From Rhodopirellula baltica SH 1 (GTDB lineage: Bacteria; Planctomycetota; Planctomycetia; Pirellulales; Pirellulaceae), in the NCBI RefSeq assembly GCF_000196115.1, contig NC_005027.1, positions 7,002,001 to 7,066,000 on the forward strand: DNA of 64,000 nucleotides, written 5' to 3'. This document shows positions 7,827-26,238 of the stretch, one piece after another (the first letter of the stretch is position 1; each line of letters opens with the position of its first letter). Position numbers and translations under genes: made by a program. Below the pieces are notes generated by a model. It worked only from the letters and a program-made list of their open reading frames with translations, was not told the origin of the DNA and ran no database searches.

Positions 7827-7868
7827 CCACTCGCGGCGAGCCTAGCTCACCGCGAGTGGTTTCTTTGT
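7827..7868 (+). terminator. Rho-independent terminator after flp
   Basis: A perfect 10-bp stem, CCACTCGCGG (7827-7836) pairing with CCGCGAGTGG (7850-7859), with a 13-base loop. The T-rich run TTTCTTTGTTTTTT follows immediately. It lies 31 bases after the flp stop, as expected for an attenuating terminator between an abundant pilin gene and its assembly operon. Confidence 0.88.
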
Positions 7869-11345: not shown

Positions 11346-12841
11346 TGTGGGAAGGCGGTAAATGCATCCGAAGTTGTGGGGCGAATTGGTTGTCGTCGTG
11401 CGGGGGTGCGAGGGGTGGATGTCTTCGACCCCTCCGGGGTCGCGCGTTGTTTGGGGGCGCACGATCCGTGGGTGCGCTTCGCGACCCACGGCTACCGTCT
11501 TTGATCCCTTCGGGATCGTTGAGGTGGGAGCGCTGCGGAGCGGTTCATTGCTCGAGTTCAACCCACCGCGGAGCGGTGACAGAGGGTAGCCGGGGGGCGC
11601 GTAGCGCACCCCCGGGACGTCGACCAACTCGCGTGTTTGACCCTGGAGGGGTCAAAGAAACTCGGGGTGGAGCGGTGTTGATTTTGATCGTGATCTTGCT
11701 GTTTGCGTTGTTCGCGATTGCGGGGCTGCTGATCGATATCGGAATGGCTCGGCTCACTCAAGCTCACATGCAGTCGGTTTCGGATGCGGCTTCATTGGAA
11801 GGTGGGTGGCAATTGGCGATGGGGGCTAATCAAACGACGACGCGTATCGCCGTCGTCGACCGTGCCGCAGAGATGTCGGAGAGTTGGGGGCCGCATCGCA
11901 TCGAACTCGAAGATGGCTACAACCTCGGCGGAAGTGGCAAGCCTGAAAGTTCCCAAACGATCAATCGAGACACGCTCGGCGATCCGGTTCGTCCGATGCT
12001 GGATCCGAATGTCGACAACGATCTCGAAGGCGACATCGTGCTCGGTAAGTACTGTGATTGTCGTGAAAACACTGAATGTTGGAAGGAATTTCAGTTGAAC
12101 CCGTTGCCAGGCCAACCTGTTGGATACGGACGAGGCAAAATGTTTGAGCCAACCGATTTCGACGTTGCGAATTCGGTTTTGGTGCGTCTCCGTCGGACTG
12201 GCGAAGACGATCTCGCCGGAGGCACTTCGGCCGAGCGACTGACCTATCTTTGGAGTCGCGGCTCGCTACTCGACTTTGGGTTGAAAGGCTGCGGTATCGC
12301 AGTGCGTAGTGAGTCGATTGCAAGACTACAGCCTGTTGTCCACGTTGGCACGCATACAGATCGCGAACAAGGAATCATGACCGCTACGACCGCCGCAGTC
12401 CGCGTCGCAGATCTTGACTCCCCCACTTACCCGTTCAATTCACTGCTTTCCGTTGAGGAGCCGTTCGACATCGGAGCGATAGCGACGGAGTCTCCTCCTG
12501 TGATCGTACGCGATCCACTGATGACCGACTGGTTTCTGCCGATCGCAAAACAGATACCTGATTCGACGGGCCCTTGGTATGTCGTAGCGTTCACGACGAT
12601 TCGCTTCGATGGCATCAACAACGCCACGCCACTTTCCCTCGCGGAAATCAATCCGACGACCATCAATGCTTCGTCAAACTTACAGCTTGCTTGGGACACG
12701 TTGCGTGCACGATCTTTGGACGCGAGTCGTGAGATCGTTGAAACAAACCGTTCGCTGGCAACAACGCCACTGATTCGTAAACGTCTGTTGCACGCTCCCG
12801 TCCTTGTTCGCAGCCAACAAATTCACGGAGGCACGCCATGA
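11342..12841 (+). CDS. tadG: TadG-like pilus protein with repeat-encoded N-terminal extension
   Basis: A 499-residue ORF. The TadG hallmark (TRGGAVLILIVILLFALFAI, then GMARLTQAHMQSVSDAASLE) begins only at about residue 107, whereas TadG proteins normally start within about 10-30 residues of this helix. The preceding 105 or so residues are Arg/Gly/Cys-rich and are encoded largely by a palindromic repeat (11430-11650) whose relative lies at 16395-16640. The start at 11342 overlaps the cpaB stop as ATGA and follows a GGGGCAGGA run, so it is a plausible coupled start and the repeat is read in frame. A shorter product from GTG 11669 cannot be excluded. The C-terminal part is periplasmic. The stop overlaps cpaE as ATGA. 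Confidence 0.75.
   Translation: MMWEGGKCIRSCGANWLSSCGGARGGCLRPLRGRALFGGARSVGALRDPRLPSLIPSGSLRWERCGAVHCSSSTHRGAVTEGSRGARSAPPGRRPTRVFDPGGVKETRGGAVLILIVILLFALFAIAGLLIDIGMARLTQAHMQSVSDAASLEGGWQLAMGANQTTTRIAVVDRAAEMSESWGPHRIELEDGYNLGGSGKPESSQTINRDTLGDPVRPMLDPNVDNDLEGDIVLGKYCDCRENTECWKEFQLNPLPGQPVGYGRGKMFEPTDFDVANSVLVRLRRTGEDDLAGGTSAERLTYLWSRGSLLDFGLKGCGIAVRSESIARLQPVVHVGTHTDREQGIMTATTAAVRVADLDSPTYPFNSLLSVEEPFDIGAIATESPPVIVRDPLMTDWFLPIAKQIPDSTGPWYVVAFTTIRFDGINNATPLSLAEINPTTINASSNLQLAWDTLRARSLDASREIVETNRSLATTPLIRKRLLHAPVLVRSQQIHGGTP
11430..11650. repeat. Mosaic palindromic repeat inside tadG
   Basis: The unit is made of short palindromes: GACCCCTCCGGGGTC, CCGTGGGTGCGCTTCGCGACCCACGG, GATCCCTTCGGGATC, and CCGGGGG next to CGCGTAGCGCACCCCCGG-type text, ending in TGACCCTGGAGGGGTCA. 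The same modules in the same order occur at 16395-16640. This copy contains no stop in the tadG frame. Confidence 0.85.
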
Positions 12842-14046
12842 CCAAGTTCCTTGCTCTTGTTCAATCGGACTCGCTTGAGATTGAATTGGAAGCCGCCACC
12901 TCGGCTCTCGAAGGCGATCATGCAGTTGATTTCTGCGTCGATCCTTCGTCCGCAATCCACAATATGCGGCACGATGCACCGGACTTGTTGCTTGTCGAAT
13001 TGTCGGGTTCGCGTGAGTCGCTGGATGTCTGGCAACATGCAATCGAAGTGCATCAAATCACTTGCCCGATCATCGGCATTTTGGATGATGATGCTGACCC
13101 CAGCGATGGACTGCTGGTGGAAGCCGTTCGGATTGGGTTTCGTGATTTCCTGCGGCGTCCAGCCAGTGCTGGAGAGCTTGCCGGTGTGATCCGACGCGTC
13201 GCTCGATCTCGTCCCGAATCAGGACGTCGCGGAAGGTTGTTGGCGGTCGCCAGTACCAAGGGAGGCGTTGGGAAATCAACGATCGCGATCAACACCGCCG
13301 TTCACTGGGCGGCGTCGACGAATCAACGAGTGCTGTTGGTCGATGCTTCGTTGCAATTGGGAGTGGCGGCATCGTTGTTGGATCTGACACCGGAGATGAC
13401 GATCGCCGATGTGGCTGCGATGCGAGATCGATTGGATGCGACGATGTTGCGTGAAGTCACCACGCGGCATGAGTCTGGCTTGCACGTCTTGAGTGCACCT
13501 CCGACACCGGCGGACGCGTCGGAAGTGGACGACACGTGCATGTCAATCATTTTGGGAGTGGCCAAGTCGGCGTTCGATTTGGTGATCGTCGATTCGTTCC
13601 CTTTGTTGGATGCCACAACGCTCGCGATTTTTGATCGAGCGGAGCACGTTGCGGTGGTGACGGAGAACGTCGTGCCCACACTGACGGGCACCGCGGCGAT
13701 GCTGAAGACGCTGGACCAATTGGACGTTCGCCGAGATCGCCGCTCGTTGATCCTGAATCGGTTCCAAAGTTGTGCGGGCAGTTTGTCGGCGGCCGAAGTG
13801 GCGGAGCAACTCGGGGAACCAGTCACTGCGGTGATCAAGTATGACCGCCGTGTTTTGGAAGCCGCGAACCTGGGCCGACCGGTCGTCTCGACGCGTAGTT
13901 GGTGGGGTGTCGGCGGAGCGATGCGAAAGCTGGCGGATGAATTGCTACGTCGTGTTGGCACGGACACATCCGTCGTCACGCCAACGGTTGTCCAGCCAAG
14001 TTCAACTTCATCCAAGGAGGAGGCCTCGCCGATAGCGGCGGGGTGA
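12838..14046 (+). CDS. cpaE: CpaE/TadZ-like ParA-family ATPase
   Basis: A 402-residue protein with an atypical receiver-like N-terminal domain (about residues 1-120) and a C-terminal MinD/ParA ATPase domain with the deviant Walker A STKGGVGKSTIAINTAVHW (about residue 140). VLLVDASLQLGVAASLLD follows, and VIVDSFPLLDATTLAI fits the Walker B position. CpaE/TadZ localises the Tad machine at the pole or membrane. The N-terminal half has ELSGSRESL where a phospho-acceptor would be, so it is probably not phosphorylated, as in other TadZ proteins. Overlaps with tadG (ATGA) and cpaF (GTGA) show tight coupling. Confidence 0.9.
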   Translation: MTKFLALVQSDSLEIELEAATSALEGDHAVDFCVDPSSAIHNMRHDAPDLLLVELSGSRESLDVWQHAIEVHQITCPIIGILDDDADPSDGLLVEAVRIGFRDFLRRPASAGELAGVIRRVARSRPESGRRGRLLAVASTKGGVGKSTIAINTAVHWAASTNQRVLLVDASLQLGVAASLLDLTPEMTIADVAAMRDRLDATMLREVTTRHESGLHVLSAPPTPADASEVDDTCMSIILGVAKSAFDLVIVDSFPLLDATTLAIFDRAEHVAVVTENVVPTLTGTAAMLKTLDQLDVRRDRRSLILNRFQSCAGSLSAAEVAEQLGEPVTAVIKYDRRVLEAANLGRPVVSTRSWWGVGGAMRKLADELLRRVGTDTSVVTPTVVQPSSTSSKEEASPIAAG

Positions 14047-20309: not shown

Positions 20310-20530
20310 CAGGTCGACTCACGCAGGGCGGCGAGGTTGGCGATCATCCAGGCAGATGCCGCAGCCAGTTGCATGCTGTCACCCGCCGTCGATATGCCAT
20401 AGGCAAAGACGCTGGCGATCCAACAGGCACTCGCGATTGTTTGGCCGAACCAGGAAAGGGTCAGCGCGTTTCGCCATGATTTTGGAAATTCGCTCTCTTT
20501 CTCCAATGCCTTCGTACTCAACACACGCAC
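20309..20530 (-). CDS. Small membrane protein of unknown function
   Basis: A 73-residue protein with two hydrophobic stretches (LSWFGQTIASACWIASVFAY and LAAASAWMIANLAAL) and a polar N-terminus. It overlaps the C-terminal coding end of the flavoprotein gene by 13 bases and the next gene by 4 (ATGA), which supports it as a real gene. No family is recognised. It is probably an inner-membrane component of the same operon. Confidence 0.65.
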   Translation of the reverse strand: MRVLSTKALEKESEFPKSWRNALTLSWFGQTIASACWIASVFAYGISTAGDSMQLAAASAWMIANLAALREST

Positions 20531-21642
20531 TCCTCACCACAACACGAAAGATCATCCAGATACATACCCCACCTGCGATACGTTTCCAGTTCTTCGGCGG
20601 GCAAGCCGAGTGAAGTGGCGATCGCTTTAGCAACCACAGCGAACCGTTGCCGATACTTGTAGATAAAACAGAAAATATGGTGGTCATGGCGGACCAGCGG
20701 ACCACACAGGAACATCCCCGGAACGAGCGACGACTCGTCATTCTCGGTGAGCAGCGGGAAACCATCCCCGCGAAGCTCAAACATGTTTTCGATCAGAAGA
20801 TGGCTTCCGCTGAAACCGCCCGCATACAGCGGACGCGTGGAGGTTCGAAACACACGGCCATCGACTGCTCTGACCTCGTAGCCAACGTCGACCCGATCCA
20901 CGGAAGCAATGGGCGTGTTGGGTAACAACTCGACTTGCTCTTCGAACCACTCTTCACGCATGCGTTCGAGCGTGCAGGGCGAAAGGGAAACACTAGGATC
21001 CGAGCTTTCGTCTTCCCACGGTTGAGCGTTGTCGAACAGGCGGACTGACTTGTCGTTAGAGGACAAGTGGAAGGCCGCATCCACGCCGCTTTCCGAACCG
21101 CCAATCACAATGAATTCCTCTCCCTTCAGTTCGGCGAAGCTCGGCACCGTCGCCGTGTGCATGCAATGTTCGCATCCCGGAAAACCATGCCTTCGTGGAT
21201 ACTGGAATTCACCGGCTGCCCAAATCACGTGCGTGGCGAAAAGGGTTTCCGAACTGGTTGTGATCTGAAACAGACTCTTTGCCTGGTCGATGCATTGGAC
21301 ATCGACACCTTCTTGAACGGGCAATTCAAAGAACTGTGAGACGCCACGCAGATGGGACGCATACTCCTGGCCTGTGGGGTGTTCCACTTCAAGGCTGTAC
21401 CCGGGGGAGACGCCGATCGCGATGGAGTTCAGGTCCAACATGCCGATGGAATTCGTCGGAAATGACGGCGTGATGAATCGGGTTTCAGCAGGCCAGCGGT
21501 CGAAGGACTCACCCACCCGCTGCCGGTCGAGAATTCGGAAGTTCTCAATCCCGGCGTGTTTGAGTGCGACTGCCACGCCGATTCCGGCTGCACCAGCGCC
21601 GATGACAATGACGTCGTAGACATATTGCCCGACTTGAGTCAC
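20518..21642 (-). CDS. FAD-dependent oxidoreductase (CzcO/thioredoxin-reductase-like)
   Basis: A 374-residue flavoprotein. An N-terminal Rossmann motif [17 protein letters not shown] binds FAD, a second dinucleotide motif [17 protein letters not shown] (about residue 175) suits NAD(P)H, and the FAD-closing [14 protein letters not shown] lies near residue 320. The pattern matches the CzcO-type / putative flavin monooxygenase group rather than any enzyme of known substrate. The C-terminus ends in a Cys cluster ([10 protein letters not shown]), unusual for the family and possibly a metal or redox site. The ATG overlaps the upstream GTPase stop (ATGA), which ties it to a zinc-chaperone operon. 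Confidence 0.8.
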
Positions 21643-22934
21643 TGCAGAACCTCATGTGCAGTTGCTTCATCTGAAGCGAGCATTTCGTCGAGGTCCGTTT
21701 CCAGTTCAATCGGCGGCAATGGATCTTCCATGTTCGTCCAGGCTTCCGGGCCTTGAGCAAACTCCATGTCAGTCAGCAAGCAGTCATCGAGAATCTGGGT
21801 AATTCGTTCTTGGCTCATCGCGTTTCCGATGAAGACCAATTCTTGATGGCGATCGCCGTGTTCGCCGACGAATTTCGATCGAATCTCTGCAATGGACTCG
21901 GAATCATCCGGCCATTCGTTTTCCGGTGCGGCCGCCCACCAGAAACCGGCTGGGTTCATGCGGATCGAGCAACCGGCTTGTGACCAGTCGTAGGCCCAGT
22001 CGTGACGCGACGCGATCCACATCAATCCTTTGCTGCGAAGCACTCCGGTGAACAAGCCTTCTTCCATGTCAGCATCCAGAGCGTTCGTCAACCGCTTGGG
22101 ATGGAATGGGCGATGGGCTCGATAAACGAAATTCGAGATGCCGTATTCTTCGGTCTCGGTTTCCTCTTCCCCACGAGGCACCTCCAACCACCCTGGCTGC
22201 GTCTCGGCTTCACTCAGAGAATAGAGCCCGGTGCCCATGATTTCGGATAGCTCAACACGGCTTTCCGTCGTGGTCAGAATTTTGGATTCAGCGTTGAGTT
22301 GACGCAGAATCCGTGTGAGCTGCTCCAGTTCATACGGCGAGATCAAATCGGTTTTGTTGACAAGGATGACGTTGGCGAATTCAACTTGATCGACCAACAA
22401 GTCCACAATGTTGCGAGTGTCCTCTTCGCTCAAACCCAACCGTCGGTCGGTGAGATCATCCCAGGAGCCGAAGTCTTTCATGAAATTTCCCGCGTCGACC
22501 ACGGTCACCATCGTGTCCAGTTCCGCGACCAGCGACAGACTATCACCCTCTTCGTCTTCGAAAGTGAAGGTTTCCGCGACCGGCATCGGTTCGGAGATAC
22601 CAGTGGATTCGATCAGCAGATAATCAAAGCGGCCATCGCGAGCCAATCGGCGAACTTCGATGAGCAAGTCTTCGCGAAGCGTGCAGCAGATGCAGCCGTT
22701 GGACATCTCGACGAGCTGTTCCTCGGTGCGAGATAGATTCGCGTCGCCCGATTTGACCAGCGCCGCGTCGATGTTGACTTCGCTCATGTCGTTGACGATC
22801 ACCGCGACTCGCAATCCGTCTCGATTGATCAGGATGTGGTTGAGCAGTGTCGTCTTGCCGGCTCCGAGGAATCCGGAAAGCACGGTAACAGGAAGACGTT
22901 CAGCTTGGGGCGTTTTGGAATCGGTTTGGTTCAT
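21639..22934 (-). CDS. COG0523 GTPase, ZigA-like zinc chaperone
   Basis: A 431-residue G3E-family GTPase. Walker A is [17 protein letters not shown] near residue 20. The metal-binding CxCC motif is [14 protein letters not shown] (about residue 80), the switch/Walker [14 protein letters not shown] follows, and the NKxD motif is ILVNKTDLI. The C-terminal CobW_C domain (about residues 265-400) matches the long-form ZigA subgroup ([37 protein letters not shown]). Such GTPases are usually Zur-repressed and supply zinc to client enzymes during scarcity. It is part of an overlapping minus-strand operon with a flavoprotein and two small unknown genes. Confidence 0.9.
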
Positions 22935-23100: not shown

Positions 23101-23577
23101 TCACTGCAACTTGGCCAGCAGCGAACTCTTCTGCAATTCTTGATTGCGACGCGGGGACGGTGATGCGACGGGAACGACCTTCACGCCATGGTTTGCCAGA
23201 CGCTCTCGATAGATGGCTTCGATTGGCAGTTCCTCACTTGGGCAGTAGAGGTAGCACTTCGCGTTGAGCAATCGAGCGATGGGTAGAGCTGGGACCGTCC
23301 GCCGGTTGTCGTTGGCGGGTAGGTCTTCTCGATCAAAAAGACACACCGCAGGAGCGTCGGTCCACGTCGATATCTGGTCGAGCAATCGCTTGTGGGCAAC
23401 GACAAGAATCGGACCACTTTGGTGTGACGACTCAGTCGTCGATTCGGCACTTCGGTTCGCAACGTTGCTGCCGCGAATATCCGTGGGCTGTTGCAGAGAG
23501 GGTTGGTCGGCGACCGCGAAGGCCCCACCACCGGATAACGCAACGATCAAGCAGAGTGTTCGGAACTTGAGCAACAT
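23101..23577 (-). CDS. Exported protein of unknown function
   Basis: A 158-residue protein with a clear signal peptide ([25 protein letters not shown] cleavage region) and a mature part without recognisable domain ([53 protein letters not shown]). Its promoter region is shared with the plus-strand GTPase gene and contains a 17-bp inverted repeat that matches two others near the Fur-family gene. It is therefore a probable first gene of the zinc-responsive minus-strand operon. Function is unknown. Confidence 0.7.
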
Positions 23578-23651
23578 GGAAGAACCCTTCGAAGGAGAAG
23601 AAGCGATAGCAGCCGATACGACGCGATTTAGTGTATGACAACACGACGCAC

Positions 23652-23668
23652 CTGCAATACGTATGCAT
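23652..23668. promoter_or_regulatory. Putative Zur box, site 3
   Basis: CTGCA-N7-TGCAT, one mismatch from a perfect 5-7-5 inverted repeat. On the reverse strand it fits the shared consensus ATGCAYAnnnnTTGCAk with the sites at 25545 and 25595. It lies in the divergent region between the exported-protein gene and the second COG0523 GTPase gene. Confidence 0.6.
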
Positions 23669-23677
23669 GTGGAAAGT

Positions 23678-23708
23678 GTTCTCGAAAATCTGTTAAACTC
23701 TCGAGAAC
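23678..23708. promoter_or_regulatory. GTTCTCGA inverted repeat upstream of GTPase gene
   Basis: GTTCTCGA (23678-23685) and TCGAGAAC (23701-23708) are perfect 8-base inverted arms around a 15-base A/T-rich spacer containing TGTTAAACT, which resembles an extended -10 hexamer. It may be an operator over the promoter of the 23755 gene or a leader hairpin. The binding factor is unknown. Confidence 0.5.
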
Positions 23709-23754
23709 GGATGCCAATCCGCAGACTGCAAGTTAGCCCTGTTCGATTTTGACG

Positions 23755-24762
23755 ATGCCAATACCAACCAATTTGATCACCGGGTTCCTTGGGTCAGGGA
23801 AGACGACCGCGATCAATCGTTTGCTCACGCATCGACCTGACGGTGAGCGATGGTCGATCTTTGTCAACGAATACGGCATGGTGACTGTGGACGAGATGCT
23901 GATCGACTCGGAGTCACCGGAGGTTAGCGTGCAGGAACTCGGTGGCGGTTGCTTGTGCTGCACCGTCGCGTTTGCTTTTGATGCAGTCTTCAGTCAATTC
24001 ATTCGTCGCAGCAAACCAGACCGGTTGTTCTTGGAACCCAGCGGCGCGGGGCATCCAGCGGCCTTGATCGACAAGTTGAGGGACGAGAACTTTCGTCGAG
24101 CGATCGATCTTCGGGCAACAATTTGTTTGGTTGATCCTGAAGATTGGAGCAAACCGCAGTGGCGGGATTCCGAGGTCTTTCATGACCAGGTTCAAATGGC
24201 CGATGTCGTCGCGATCAACTTCACCGACAAGCGAGACCCCGAGTTGACGCAGCAATGCCGTGAATGGATTGAATCATTCGACCCGCCCAAGATGCTGATT
24301 GTTGAAACGGACCATGGGCGAATCGATCCCGCGTGGCTCGATATCCAAAACACGGTTGTCCGCCCACCCAAGTTTGGCGAGGCTCATTCGCACAATCATT
24401 CCTATGCGGCCGGGCATGTGGATGCGGGCGGGCTGACTTCGATTGAGGCCCCGCCGATGTTGGGAAAGCCCAAACGGATTGAAAACGAGGGCGACGGGCA
24501 GTGGGCGTGCGGGTGGATCTTTTCCGTCGATGAAGTTTTTGATCGGGATCAGTTGCTGGACCTACTTGGCTATCTGCAGCCGGTCGTGCGGCTCAAAGGC
24601 GTGTTTCGGTGCCAGGATGATTGGTGGGTGATCAATCGCAGCAAGAATGAGACCTCATTCAGCACCACGGCGTATCGTCGCGACAGCCGATTGGAAGTCA
24701 TCACTGACAGAGCGACCTCGGGCTGGGACGAAGTGGAACAGCTGCTACTGAAGTGCAAGTAG
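23755..24762 (+). CDS. COG0523 GTPase (CobW/YjiA-like), second copy
   Basis: About 335 residues from ATG 23755; a TTG two codons earlier is less likely. G3E motifs: Walker A ITGFLGSGKTTAINRLL at the N-terminus, CxCC motif GGGCLCCTVAFAF (about residue 75), and LEPSGAGHPAAL. The NKxD position is degenerate (AINFTDKRDPE). A His-rich stretch EAHSHNHSYAAGHVDAGG (about residues 210-227) links the GTPase to the CobW_C domain, a typical metal-binding insert in metallochaperone members. It is a shorter, more YjiA/CobW-like form than the 21639-22934 copy. Both flank the same putative Zur-controlled promoter region. The likely job is zinc delivery under zinc limitation. Confidence 0.88.
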   Translation: MPIPTNLITGFLGSGKTTAINRLLTHRPDGERWSIFVNEYGMVTVDEMLIDSESPEVSVQELGGGCLCCTVAFAFDAVFSQFIRRSKPDRLFLEPSGAGHPAALIDKLRDENFRRAIDLRATICLVDPEDWSKPQWRDSEVFHDQVQMADVVAINFTDKRDPELTQQCREWIESFDPPKMLIVETDHGRIDPAWLDIQNTVVRPPKFGEAHSHNHSYAAGHVDAGGLTSIEAPPMLGKPKRIENEGDGQWACGWIFSVDEVFDRDQLLDLLGYLQPVVRLKGVFRCQDDWWVINRSKNETSFSTTAYRRDSRLEVITDRATSGWDEVEQLLLKCK

Positions 24763-24794
24763 CGATTGGAGGTCGCGTCGTGATGCTCACCGGA

Positions 24795-25439
24795 TCAGGC
24801 AGCTTGCATTTCCGGTTCGCAGCAACCGCAGAGGCATCCGTATCGTCGATTCAGCAAGTGAGCGCAAACCAGGAGGAGTCCGCCGATCGGTGTGATCCAG
24901 AGTGCAAAGGGAGCGACCAAGGCTTGCAACCCAGATTGCTCCGGGGTGCTCCCACTAGCAGCCAAACTGCTCAGGGTGGATTCCGCACCATCGGAACCGG
25001 CATCTGCACCAGCCGCGGCGGTGCAATGTTCACAGCATGCGTCGGTGCAAACGGCGGCATCGGTCGCCGCGATGGTGGATGTCTCACAGGCTGCACAGCA
25101 GTCGCCGGCCGAGCCAAATGCTGCGCTGGTGATCAGGACCAGTCCCACGCTGGCGATTGCGATCGGTGTCATCCGGCGATGCTTGCGGAAGCCAGGGACG
25201 AAAGCCGCGATCGCGATCAAGAAGCAAGCCAGCGCCATCCACTGATGAAAGGATTCGTCTGCCAGGAAGCTGAGTCCCAGCGCTGGCAAGAATGCGATCA
25301 CAAACGGCATTGCCGCACAATGAATCGCACATCCGATCGATGCAACGATCCCAACCCAGTCGCGCCAAGTGGAAATTCTCGTGGGCTCGGAACTGCTGAG
25401 CGGCAGAGCACTGGCGGGTTGATAGGGGACATCGCTCAT
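24795..25439 (-). CDS. MerC-domain membrane protein
   Basis: A 214-residue membrane protein. The MerC-like core has DWVGIVASIGCAIHCAAMPFVI (the CAIHC pattern of MerC-domain proteins) and helices at about residues 25-125. A Cys-rich periplasmic or cytoplasmic insert follows (GDCCAACETS, CTDACCEHC; about residues 112-142), then a last helix and a Cys-rich tail (RYGCLCGCCEPEM). MerC proteins import Hg(II), but MerC-domain proteins outside mer operons occur with zinc genes. Its promoter faces the Fur-family gene and holds two putative Zur boxes. A role in zinc movement is inferred from that context. Confidence 0.82.
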   Translation of the reverse strand: MSDVPYQPASALPLSSSEPTRISTWRDWVGIVASIGCAIHCAAMPFVIAFLPALGLSFLADESFHQWMALACFLIAIAAFVPGFRKHRRMTPIAIASVGLVLITSAAFGSAGDCCAACETSTIAATDAAVCTDACCEHCTAAAGADAGSDGAESTLSSLAASGSTPEQSGLQALVAPFALWITPIGGLLLVCAHLLNRRYGCLCGCCEPEMQAA

Positions 25440-25544
25440 TGATCAGGCTCCGTCATGGTCGTTGGGGCTTCTTTTCCCAGTGCTGGTAAAGGAAAAGACA
25501 CGCAATTGGCTTTTGGGAAACATGTCTAGGTATCGTGCATGCAG

Positions 25545-25561
25545 ATGCAAGTTATGTGCAT
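25545..25561. promoter_or_regulatory. Putative Zur box, site 1
   Basis: ATGCAAGTTATGTGCAT, a perfect 5-7-5 inverted repeat (ATGCA-N7-TGCAT). The size and symmetry fit a Fur/Zur dimer operator. It lies about 105 bases before the MerC-type start. Confidence 0.68.
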
Positions 25562-25594
25562 TAAAGGATGCGGGTGATCGCTTGTCAATCTGAA

Positions 25595-25611
25595 ATGCAA
25601 CGCTTGTGCAT
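25595..25611. promoter_or_regulatory. Putative Zur box, site 2
   Basis: ATGCAACGCTTGTGCAT, sharing ATGCAA at the left and TGTGCAT at the right with site 1. It starts exactly 50 bases downstream of site 1, about five helical turns, so bound dimers would lie on the same DNA face. Confidence 0.68.
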
Positions 25612-25806
25612 AAACAACTGAAGTGATGTCTATGGAAAAGAGCGAATGGGTCACTGGGAAGCTCGGGGAAGCAGCTATTCCGGGGACATCCACGCCCCAC
25701 AGGATCGTGCCTGCCGATTTTGTGGATTTGCAAAAGAATTGCAGGTTGATATGCTGGAGGATCGTCGTCGAATCCTGGTCAGGTTCATTTCTTTTAGGTC
25801 ACCTCT

Positions 25807-26238
25807 GTGAGCAAGTCGTCTGAGTCAATCGAAGCTATCAAGCAGGCCATTCGTGATGCGGGGTTGCGAGCAACCCCTGCGAGAATCGCCACACTCGTCA
25901 TGCTTCGAGAGGCGAAGGCACCTCTGACCCACGCGGATGTCGCTGAGCAACTGGCCGCCAGCGGCGTGGACAAAGCGACTGCGTTTCGCAACTTGAACGA
26001 CATGACGGACTCCGGTTTGCTGCGTCGGACCGAGTTGGGGGATCACGTTTGGCGATTCGAAGCGATCGCGGAGGGGGAGAACGACCAATCGGCCCACCCG
26101 CACTTCCTGTGCGTCGATTGCGGCACGGTGTCTTGCCTGAACGACGTGAAATTGACCGCGGGCAGCCAGCGAGAGAGCGGCAAGGTTGGCGAAGTGACCG
26201 AAATTCTGCTTCGCGGCCATTGCAACGACTGCCAATAG
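25807..26238 (+). CDS. zur: Fur-family repressor, probably Zur
   Basis: A 143-residue Fur-family protein starting at GTG 25807. The N-terminal winged helix (about residues 1-80) reads DAGLRATPARIATLVMLRE and DVAEQLAASGVDKATAFRNL, with recognition-helix-like KATAFRNLNDM. The dimerisation/metal domain has HPHFLCVDCGTVSCL and ends GHCNDCQ, giving the two CxxC structural zinc pairs. The neighbours (MerC-type protein, two COG0523 GTPases, a NicO exporter) favour Zur over Fur, Mur or Nur. Two matching inverted repeats upstream suggest it represses itself and the divergent gene. Metal specificity is inference. Confidence 0.82.
   Translation: MSKSSESIEAIKQAIRDAGLRATPARIATLVMLREAKAPLTHADVAEQLAASGVDKATAFRNLNDMTDSGLLRRTELGDHVWRFEAIAEGENDQSAHPHFLCVDCGTVSCLNDVKLTAGSQRESGKVGEVTEILLRGHCNDCQ

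Follow-up and report, generated by a model that had tools for sequence, protein, structure and literature searches.

A candidate Zur operator before zinc genes of Rhodopirellula baltica SH 1 and related planctomycetes

Which metal is sensed by the Fur-family regulator encoded at position 25807 of the Rhodopirellula baltica SH 1 DNA analyzed here, and through which sites might it control the genes around it? The stretch, hereafter the window, comprises 64,000 nucleotides (NC_005027.1, positions 7,002,001 to 7,066,000) and holds a metal block in which the genes for a YpdA-like oxidoreductase, ZigA and a 158-aa protein (leftward), a second COG0523 GTPase (rightward), a MerC-type protein (leftward) and the regulator (rightward) follow each other (Table 1). 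A preliminary description of this DNA had noticed three matching inverted repeats in the two divergent promoter regions of the block and had proposed a candidate Zur regulon, a proposal which is supported by the palindrome upstream of orthologues and zinc genes and by its co-occurrence with the regulator. We consider it highly likely that the product of the gene at 25807 is the zinc sensor Zur, which would repress the block through four 17-bp operators, here called A to D, in the two divergent promoter regions. These mirror-image sites are very probably the switches of a zinc-starvation response in this bacterium.

A pattern scan of the window recovered the 17-bp inverted repeats at 23652-23668, 25545-25561 and 25595-25611, exactly where they had been placed, and all three match both the plus-strand form MTGCA-N7-TGCAT and the minus-strand form ATGCAYAnnnnTTGCAK; the starts of the last two are, as described, exactly 50 bases apart. 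The statement that there was no other close match did not survive the rescan. It had overlooked 25728-25744 (TTGCAAAAGAATTGCAG, two mismatches to the described pattern), which lies in the regulator's own promoter and is the second-best site, as well as 13037-13053, an exact instance of the plus-strand form with one mismatch to the reverse-strand form. The latter, a good core match within a 402-aa open reading frame (ORF) at 12838-14046 (ParA-like by eye), is probably a chance match. Nor is the described reverse-strand consensus the biological one, since relatives show (C)A-n-WTGCAA-nnnnn-TTGCAW-n-T(G). The described pattern has three exact matches in the 7,145,576-bp genome, all of them the noted sites, about one being expected by chance on our own estimate; with two mismatches allowed, the window holds 8 matches against 4.3 expected, a number reached by 6 of 100 shuffles. 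As these counts are near chance, the weight rests on clustering and conservation. Two genome-wide probes were set aside, namely the described consensus (27 places at up to one mismatch, three of them exact; reversed control 12) and WTGCAA-n5-TTGCAW with one mismatch, which is unspecific (252 strand matches against 130 in the control).

Conservation was examined in loci encoding orthologues of the regulator, of which 80 were fetched and 79 used, L070 being dropped as it had no upstream sequence and L052 having 251 bp upstream only (L and G numbers are our handles for loci and genomes). In an unbiased count of 4-base dyads within 350 bp upstream of the orthologues, TGCA-N7-TGCA came first; it was present in 41 of 79 regions, as compared with an expectation of 3.1 derived from the same loci. 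The palindrome is thus present in orthologous promoters, where its absence had been named in the preliminary description as one observation that would refute a Zur regulon. TGCA-N13-TGCA was discarded as a second spacing class, since in 18 of its 25 loci it arises from an extra TGCA that lies 6 bp beyond the edge of the same operator. A position weight matrix (PWM) was built from 46 upstream sites of zur orthologues in other planctomycetes, none of them from the window; it has the core WTGCAA-n5-TTGCAW with an outer CA at 71-74% and a mirrored TG, and its five top places in the window are 23652, 25728, 25545, 13037 (score 14.5) and 25595, in that order. Four of these five sit in the two divergent promoter regions, which together make up 540 bp (binomial P 2.5e-8, the cut-off at five places being chosen post hoc). 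When training was restricted to distant relatives (54 loci, 24 sites), the identical five places led the window, with 25728 now in front, and this distant-only profile found a site scoring at least 16 upstream of zur in 18 of the 25 nearer loci. Across 1.06 Mb of loci the full PWM found 78 sites scoring at least 20, 37 of them outside the training set, while ten column-permuted profiles found 0 each.

The sites were also sought genome-wide with a profile trained on other genomes, by which 150 of 3571 candidates were scored in this 7.1-Mb genome and 124 candidates per genome in a set of 60 genomes; owing to this restricted scoring, missed sites are certain. Operator A was the top match in this genome (E 0.16), operator D stood in row 4 and operator B in row 8 of 11, with E-values of 0.16-2.9 that are weak when taken alone. 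Across the genome the extended form CANNTGCA-N7-TGCANNTG is matched exactly only once, at 23649-23671. Profile matches at 5314891, 2993222, 2911920 and 2224704 were rejected, as they lie in long ORFs with, by eye, no adjoining zinc gene; an HMA-like ORF was noticed near the last of them. Within the set of 60, the 41 genomes with an orthologue of the regulator averaged 5.8 profile matches (E<=1) against 1.2 in the 19 genomes without one (Mann-Whitney P 2e-5), and the best match had E<0.1 in 25 of the 41 and in 2 of the 19, respectively. A weak match to the regulator, presumably another Fur-family gene, is found in 8 of those 19. For the congener genome G045 the profile search gave a single match, elsewhere, and the PWM scores its zur-merC sites at 21.1, 19.5 and 15.5.

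Which genes stand behind such sites in the relatives was counted from tblastn matches in the 79 loci, with a site of PWM at least 16 within 450 bp upstream. A site was found before 26 of 30 ZIP matches, 12 of 14 ArsR-type regulators and 3 of 3 members of the 158-aa family, before 10 of 18 MerC, 2 of 4 COG0523-2 and 42 of 79 zur genes, and before 18 of 37 ZigA-like matches, a count that includes distant paralogues and split matches; the oxidoreductase gene, which would be internal to its operon, had a site in 0 of 10 cases. Because many of the counts for ZIP, MerC and zur go back to a shared intergenic site, they are not independent. Thus the motif scan upstream of zur, COG0523 and merC-like genes of related planctomycetes, which the preliminary description had put forward as a check, finds the palindrome conserved. 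At PWM 20 and above, 9 of 15 ZigA ORFs (at least 60% identity) have a site, five of the nine outside training, as have 43 of 786 unlabelled ORFs, many of which are ZIP, ArsR-type or 158-aa-like by eye. Among 30 loci fetched from profile matches in the 60 genomes, ZigA follows a site in L177, L179, L180, L181 and L184 (in the last four on contigs other than that of zur), ZnuA in L178 and COG0523-2 in L197, and in many of the 30 no gene close to the site could be recognised; ZnuA also stands behind a site in L059. Pfam confirmed ZIP, ZnuA, ArsR and COG0523 behind sites in the examples tested. Other genes were seen behind sites too: DUF1559 prepilin-like genes close behind strong sites (L188 388-1422 and L192 456-1466 by Pfam, L043 9042-9695 by eye) and, in one relative, a NicO/DsbD-type membrane protein (L061 1277-2008). 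The ArsR-type gene of L016 (277-660), with its counterparts in 11 further loci, may encode a second metal sensor under Zur. In this genome the core is also matched exactly at 1498294, close to a ZIP gene; this place was discarded, as it scores 3.2 with the PWM and lies downstream of the gene.

The placement of the sites was compared with promoter-like hexamers in 113 site-gene pairs of the relatives, among which a single site may be paired with two genes and the promoters of orthologues are not independent data points. A hexamer resembling a -10 is most frequent at an offset of 22 bases, counted from the first base of the 17-mer (27% of the pairs; next offset 9%), the share being 56% of 25 ZIP pairs, 33% of 12 MerC pairs and 27% of 41 zur pairs. 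At this offset the TTGCAA of the first half-site would be the -35, 16 bp ahead of the -10, so that in relatives the first TTGCAA often appears to double as a promoter -35. In the window the candidate zur promoter takes its -35 from the left half of operator D, and the counterpart of its -10 in the congener reads TATGAT. Operator D starts 79 bp and ends 62 bp before the zur GTG; in L009, L010, L012, L013 and L015 the site starts 60-65 bp ahead of the zur orthologue. On the merC side, operator B extends over 2 bp of the candidate -10 and over the expected start region, and 6 bp separate operator C from the candidate -35. The congener locus L218 keeps this arrangement, with counterparts of B and C at 7834 and 7884, again 50 bp apart, and promoter elements at 7877-7849, and in L017 of Rubripirellula obstinata two sites likewise lie 50 bp apart (7635, 7685). 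For these reasons the 50-bp spacing is best read, from the positions of these elements, as the length of a promoter that would be clamped at both ends. A sigma-70 consensus scan reported no promoter; the zur and merC candidates come from the fixed-offset test and from direct pattern match in two genomes, and that of merC was missed by the scan because it requires A at position 2 of the -10. A leftward TTGCAG-N16-TACACT picked by eye for the operon of the 158-aa protein was dropped as too weak.

The sites are thus placed as repressor sites would be, and the way in which Fur-family repressors work suggests repression rather than activation. We infer that the regulator binds the sites and that zinc is the signal, and from this the following model may be drawn, in which the operon structure and the functions of all proteins are putative as well. 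Zinc-bound Zur dimers would occupy the four 17-bp operators. Operator D, covering the zur -35, would serve autorepression; operators B and C would bracket the merC promoter; and operator A would act from its place between two divergent promoters, one for the 158-aa-protein/zigA/oxidoreductase operon and one for the second COG0523 gene. Under zinc shortage, Zur would release the DNA, and ZigA, the COG0523 protein, the MerC-type membrane protein and the probably secreted 158-aa protein would be made.

Table 1. Candidate operators, candidate promoters and genes of the metal block (window coordinates)
Feature	Position	Strand	Details
Candidate Zur operator A	23649..23671 (17-bp core 23652-23668)		Extended 23-bp form CACCTGCAATACGTATGCATGTG; PWM 24.2, window rank 1; between divergent 158-aa-protein/zigA operon and second COG0523 gene
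Candidate Zur operator B	25545..25561		merC side; PWM 20.2, window rank 3
Candidate Zur operator C (weak)	25595..25611		PWM 12.6, window rank 5
Candidate Zur operator D	25728..25744		TTGCAAAAGAATTGCAG; PWM 22.1, window rank 2 (rank 1 with distant-only training)
Candidate zur promoter	25728..25755	+	TTGCAA-N16-TATGCT; -35 25728-25733, -10 25750-25755
Candidate merC promoter	25560..25588	-	TTGACA-N17-TTTAAT; -35 25588-25583, -10 25565-25560
YpdA-like flavin disulfide oxidoreductase	20518..21642	-	PF13738 327.5 bits; TIGR04018 79.2 bits, below cut-off 339.9
zigA, zinc metallochaperone GTPase (COG0523)	21639..22934	-	NCBIfam NF038288 606.3 bits
158-aa protein, first gene of presumed zigA operon	23101..23577	-	Signal-peptide-like start by eye
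Second COG0523 GTPase	23749..24762	+	PF02492 and PF07683 above cut-off; GGGCLCCTV in translation
merC-type membrane protein, 214 aa	24795..25439	-	PF03203 76.9 bits, cut-off 27.6; divergent from zur
zur, putative Fur-family repressor, 143 aa	25807..26238	+	GTG start; PF01475 48.3 bits, cut-off 23.1

From the sequence of the regulator by itself, Zur cannot be told apart from Fur or PerR. An alignment of 16 sequences shows H80, H97, H99, D79, E85 and E132 to be invariant, together with both CxxC pairs, C102/C105 and C139/C142. Two such CxxC pairs form the structural zinc site of Zur. It is the targets that point to Zur, together with the operator, whose length and arms agree with those of the predicted Desulfovibrio box. 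A number of observations weigh against it. In the PDB the regulator matches Fur and PerR structures at E<=1e-8, with no Zur among them. No site scoring at least 16 lies within 450 bp upstream in 37 of the 79 zur orthologues, 11 of which have an identity of 62% or more with the window protein; in 8 of these 11 a site stands instead before the ZIP/ArsR pair of the same locus, and the other three (L025, L039 and L044) have none there either. Five of the 41 orthologue-bearing genomes (orthologues 42-50% identical) lack a profile match at E<=1, and G005 has six matches though it has no orthologue. In the promoter comparison the ZigA pairs (n=20) peak at offset 23 (25%), one base further, and the ArsR pairs (n=12) lack the offset-22 peak. 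In this genome the operators stand only before zigA, COG0523, merC and zur, its ZIP and znuABC genes being without a site, and operator C is the weakest of the four with 12.6 against 20.2-24.2 for A, B and D.

If the regulator sensed iron or peroxide, being a Fur or a PerR, the block would be an iron or oxidative-stress regulon. This would agree with the PDB matches, with NCBIfam, in which Fur, PerR and Irr models are hit, all far below cut-off, and no Zur model is listed, and with the public names of its relatives, which are Fur-family, Fur or PerR (e.g. 'Transcriptional regulator PerR' and 'Ferric uptake regulation protein', borne by some of the close ones). The targets in relatives are ZIP, ZnuA and ZigA, however, a second Fur-family gene in this genome has the better Pfam FUR score (82.3 against 47.9 bits), and profile matches are few in the 19 genomes without an orthologue, all of which makes an iron or peroxide sensor improbable. 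Another protein might bind the palindrome, for instance the ArsR-type regulator which is so often encoded behind the same site; we regard this as very improbable, because a profile match at E<0.1 occurs in 27 of 60 genomes while an ArsR-type protein at least 51% identical occurs in 7 of 60, and for this genome an ArsR-type binder was ruled out, its closest protein being only 31% identical. That the three repeats are a chance cluster could be argued from a core of only about 12 specified bases and from the two-mismatch count in the window, and is refuted by the conserved dyads, the ranking by an independently trained PWM, the empty permuted controls and the co-occurrence across genomes, so that its probability is next to nil. 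It may also be that Zur regulates the block and that operators A, B and D alone are real, operator C being a chance or decayed site and the 50-bp spacing meaningless. Operator C lacks the CA/TG edges and scores below 13037, the probable chance site; set against this, the congener keeps a site pair with the 50-bp distance at the corresponding place, its C scoring higher (19.5), the pair in Rubripirellula obstinata has the same spacing, and the same TTGACA-N17-TTTAAT is bracketed by a site pair in window and congener, and we hold a spurious operator C to be unlikely, though well worth keeping in mind. Zur acting through four operators is the reading that we retain for the block.

The neighbours had been named in the preliminary description as Fur-family, MerC-type and two COG0523 genes, and these names held: all passed the cut-offs of their Pfam or NCBIfam models (PF01475, PF03203, PF02492/PF07683 and NF038288). 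ZigA clears the NCBIfam equivalog cut-off of 600 bits, and this links the block with zinc without recourse to the palindromes. There is a 4-bp overlap between the start of the oxidoreductase gene and the stop of zigA; a relative of this oxidoreductase was seen in 10 of the 79 loci, near a ZigA homologue every time, and it is possible that the enzyme is a redox partner of the zinc response. The 158-aa protein, for which no Pfam family was matched, carries a conserved residue stretch, and the fold predicted for its residues 54-158 may resemble one lobe of ZnuA/TroA-type proteins; sequence homology to ZnuA was looked for with a negative result. In nine aligned MerC sequences the invariant residues are C37-x2-H40-C41, H65, C72, H87, C114-C115, H194, C204 and C206-C207. 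With MerC mercury transporters this protein shares the Pfam MerC domain, and unlike them its gene is transcribed away from zur, Zur-type sites lying in the gap that separates the two; further mer genes were not found among the six block proteins scanned with Pfam and NCBIfam.

In this genome MerC is so far the sole membrane protein behind a Zur-type site. The MerC-family proteins of Pirellulaceae might be zinc importers that replace a ZIP permease in the Zur regulon, the 158-aa protein being a single-lobe ZnuA-like carrier that would feed MerC, but we regard this as doubtful. In the 79 loci, which reach at most 8 kb from zur in either direction, ZIP alone occurs in 25, MerC alone in 12, both in 4 and neither in 38. 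Of 24 genomes in which MerC is matched, 22 have a ZIP match somewhere as well, which counts against a simple replacement and makes it slightly less probable. The genome's own ZIP gene (L210 1476-3448; G000:C1:4695000-4698500) belongs to the same family as the ZIPs behind Zur sites in relatives, is without a site and is followed by a cation-efflux gene.

The operator was also compared with other published Zur boxes. The kind of system is already known. Zinc-free paralogues of ribosomal proteins are common, though not universal, members of Zur regulons. A Zur box, ATGCAACnnnGTTGCAT, was predicted upstream of znuABC-zur in Desulfovibrio vulgaris and D. desulfuricans (Rodionov 2004, PMC545781). 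The planctomycete operator is likewise a 17-bp palindrome with ATGCAA/TTGCAT arms before zinc uptake and zur genes, and differs from it in lacking a conserved C at position 7 and G at position 11, in the CA/TG edges of most training sites, some with a further TGCA, and in targets that include zigA, COG0523, merC and ZIP; the window sites have 2-4 mismatches to the Desulfovibrio box, operator C 2 in 14 specified bases (own count). Zur regulons with COG0523 members are described by Haas 2009 (PMC2770081) and Mikhaylina 2018 (PMC6103462), and similarly combine Zur, COG0523 and zinc import, with boxes often over the -35 and more than one box in some promoters; the operator is unlike the E. coli Zur box TRWNAYRWTATAWYRTNWCA given in the latter, and a word search of both main texts found no mention of Planctomycetes. 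ZepA zinc acquisition loci were reported in Planctomycetota and other phyla (PMC10957091). According to the section on ZepA, a Fur-family gene adjoins zinc genes there too and was inferred to be Zur, and a blind motif search gave matches upstream of cyanobacterial and proteobacterial zepA and a Clostridia-like site in Luteolibacter; the text of that section gives no TTGCAA-type box. By word search, zinc and the Fur family are not mentioned in the text of R. baltica stress transcriptomes (PMC2754498), nor Planctomycetes in that of RegPrecise 3.0 (PMC3840689), and PMC4628125 gave a primer match only. In search listings of the open-access literature, supplements and subscription papers being outside their scope, the operator is unreported for Planctomycetes, and no relevant title joins MerC with Zur.

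As far as searched, three proposals are new: that of a Zur operator in Pirellulaceae, that of a zinc role for a regulator with relatives publicly named Fur or PerR, and that of MerC as a candidate zinc importer. The Pirellulaceae gain a candidate Zur operator that can be used for scanning their genomes, and the findings argue for a zinc-sensor role of a regulator with PerR- and Fur-named relatives. They also provide, for a little-studied group, a testable list of genes that would respond to zinc starvation, including the mercury-named MerC and a probably secreted protein that belongs to no known family.

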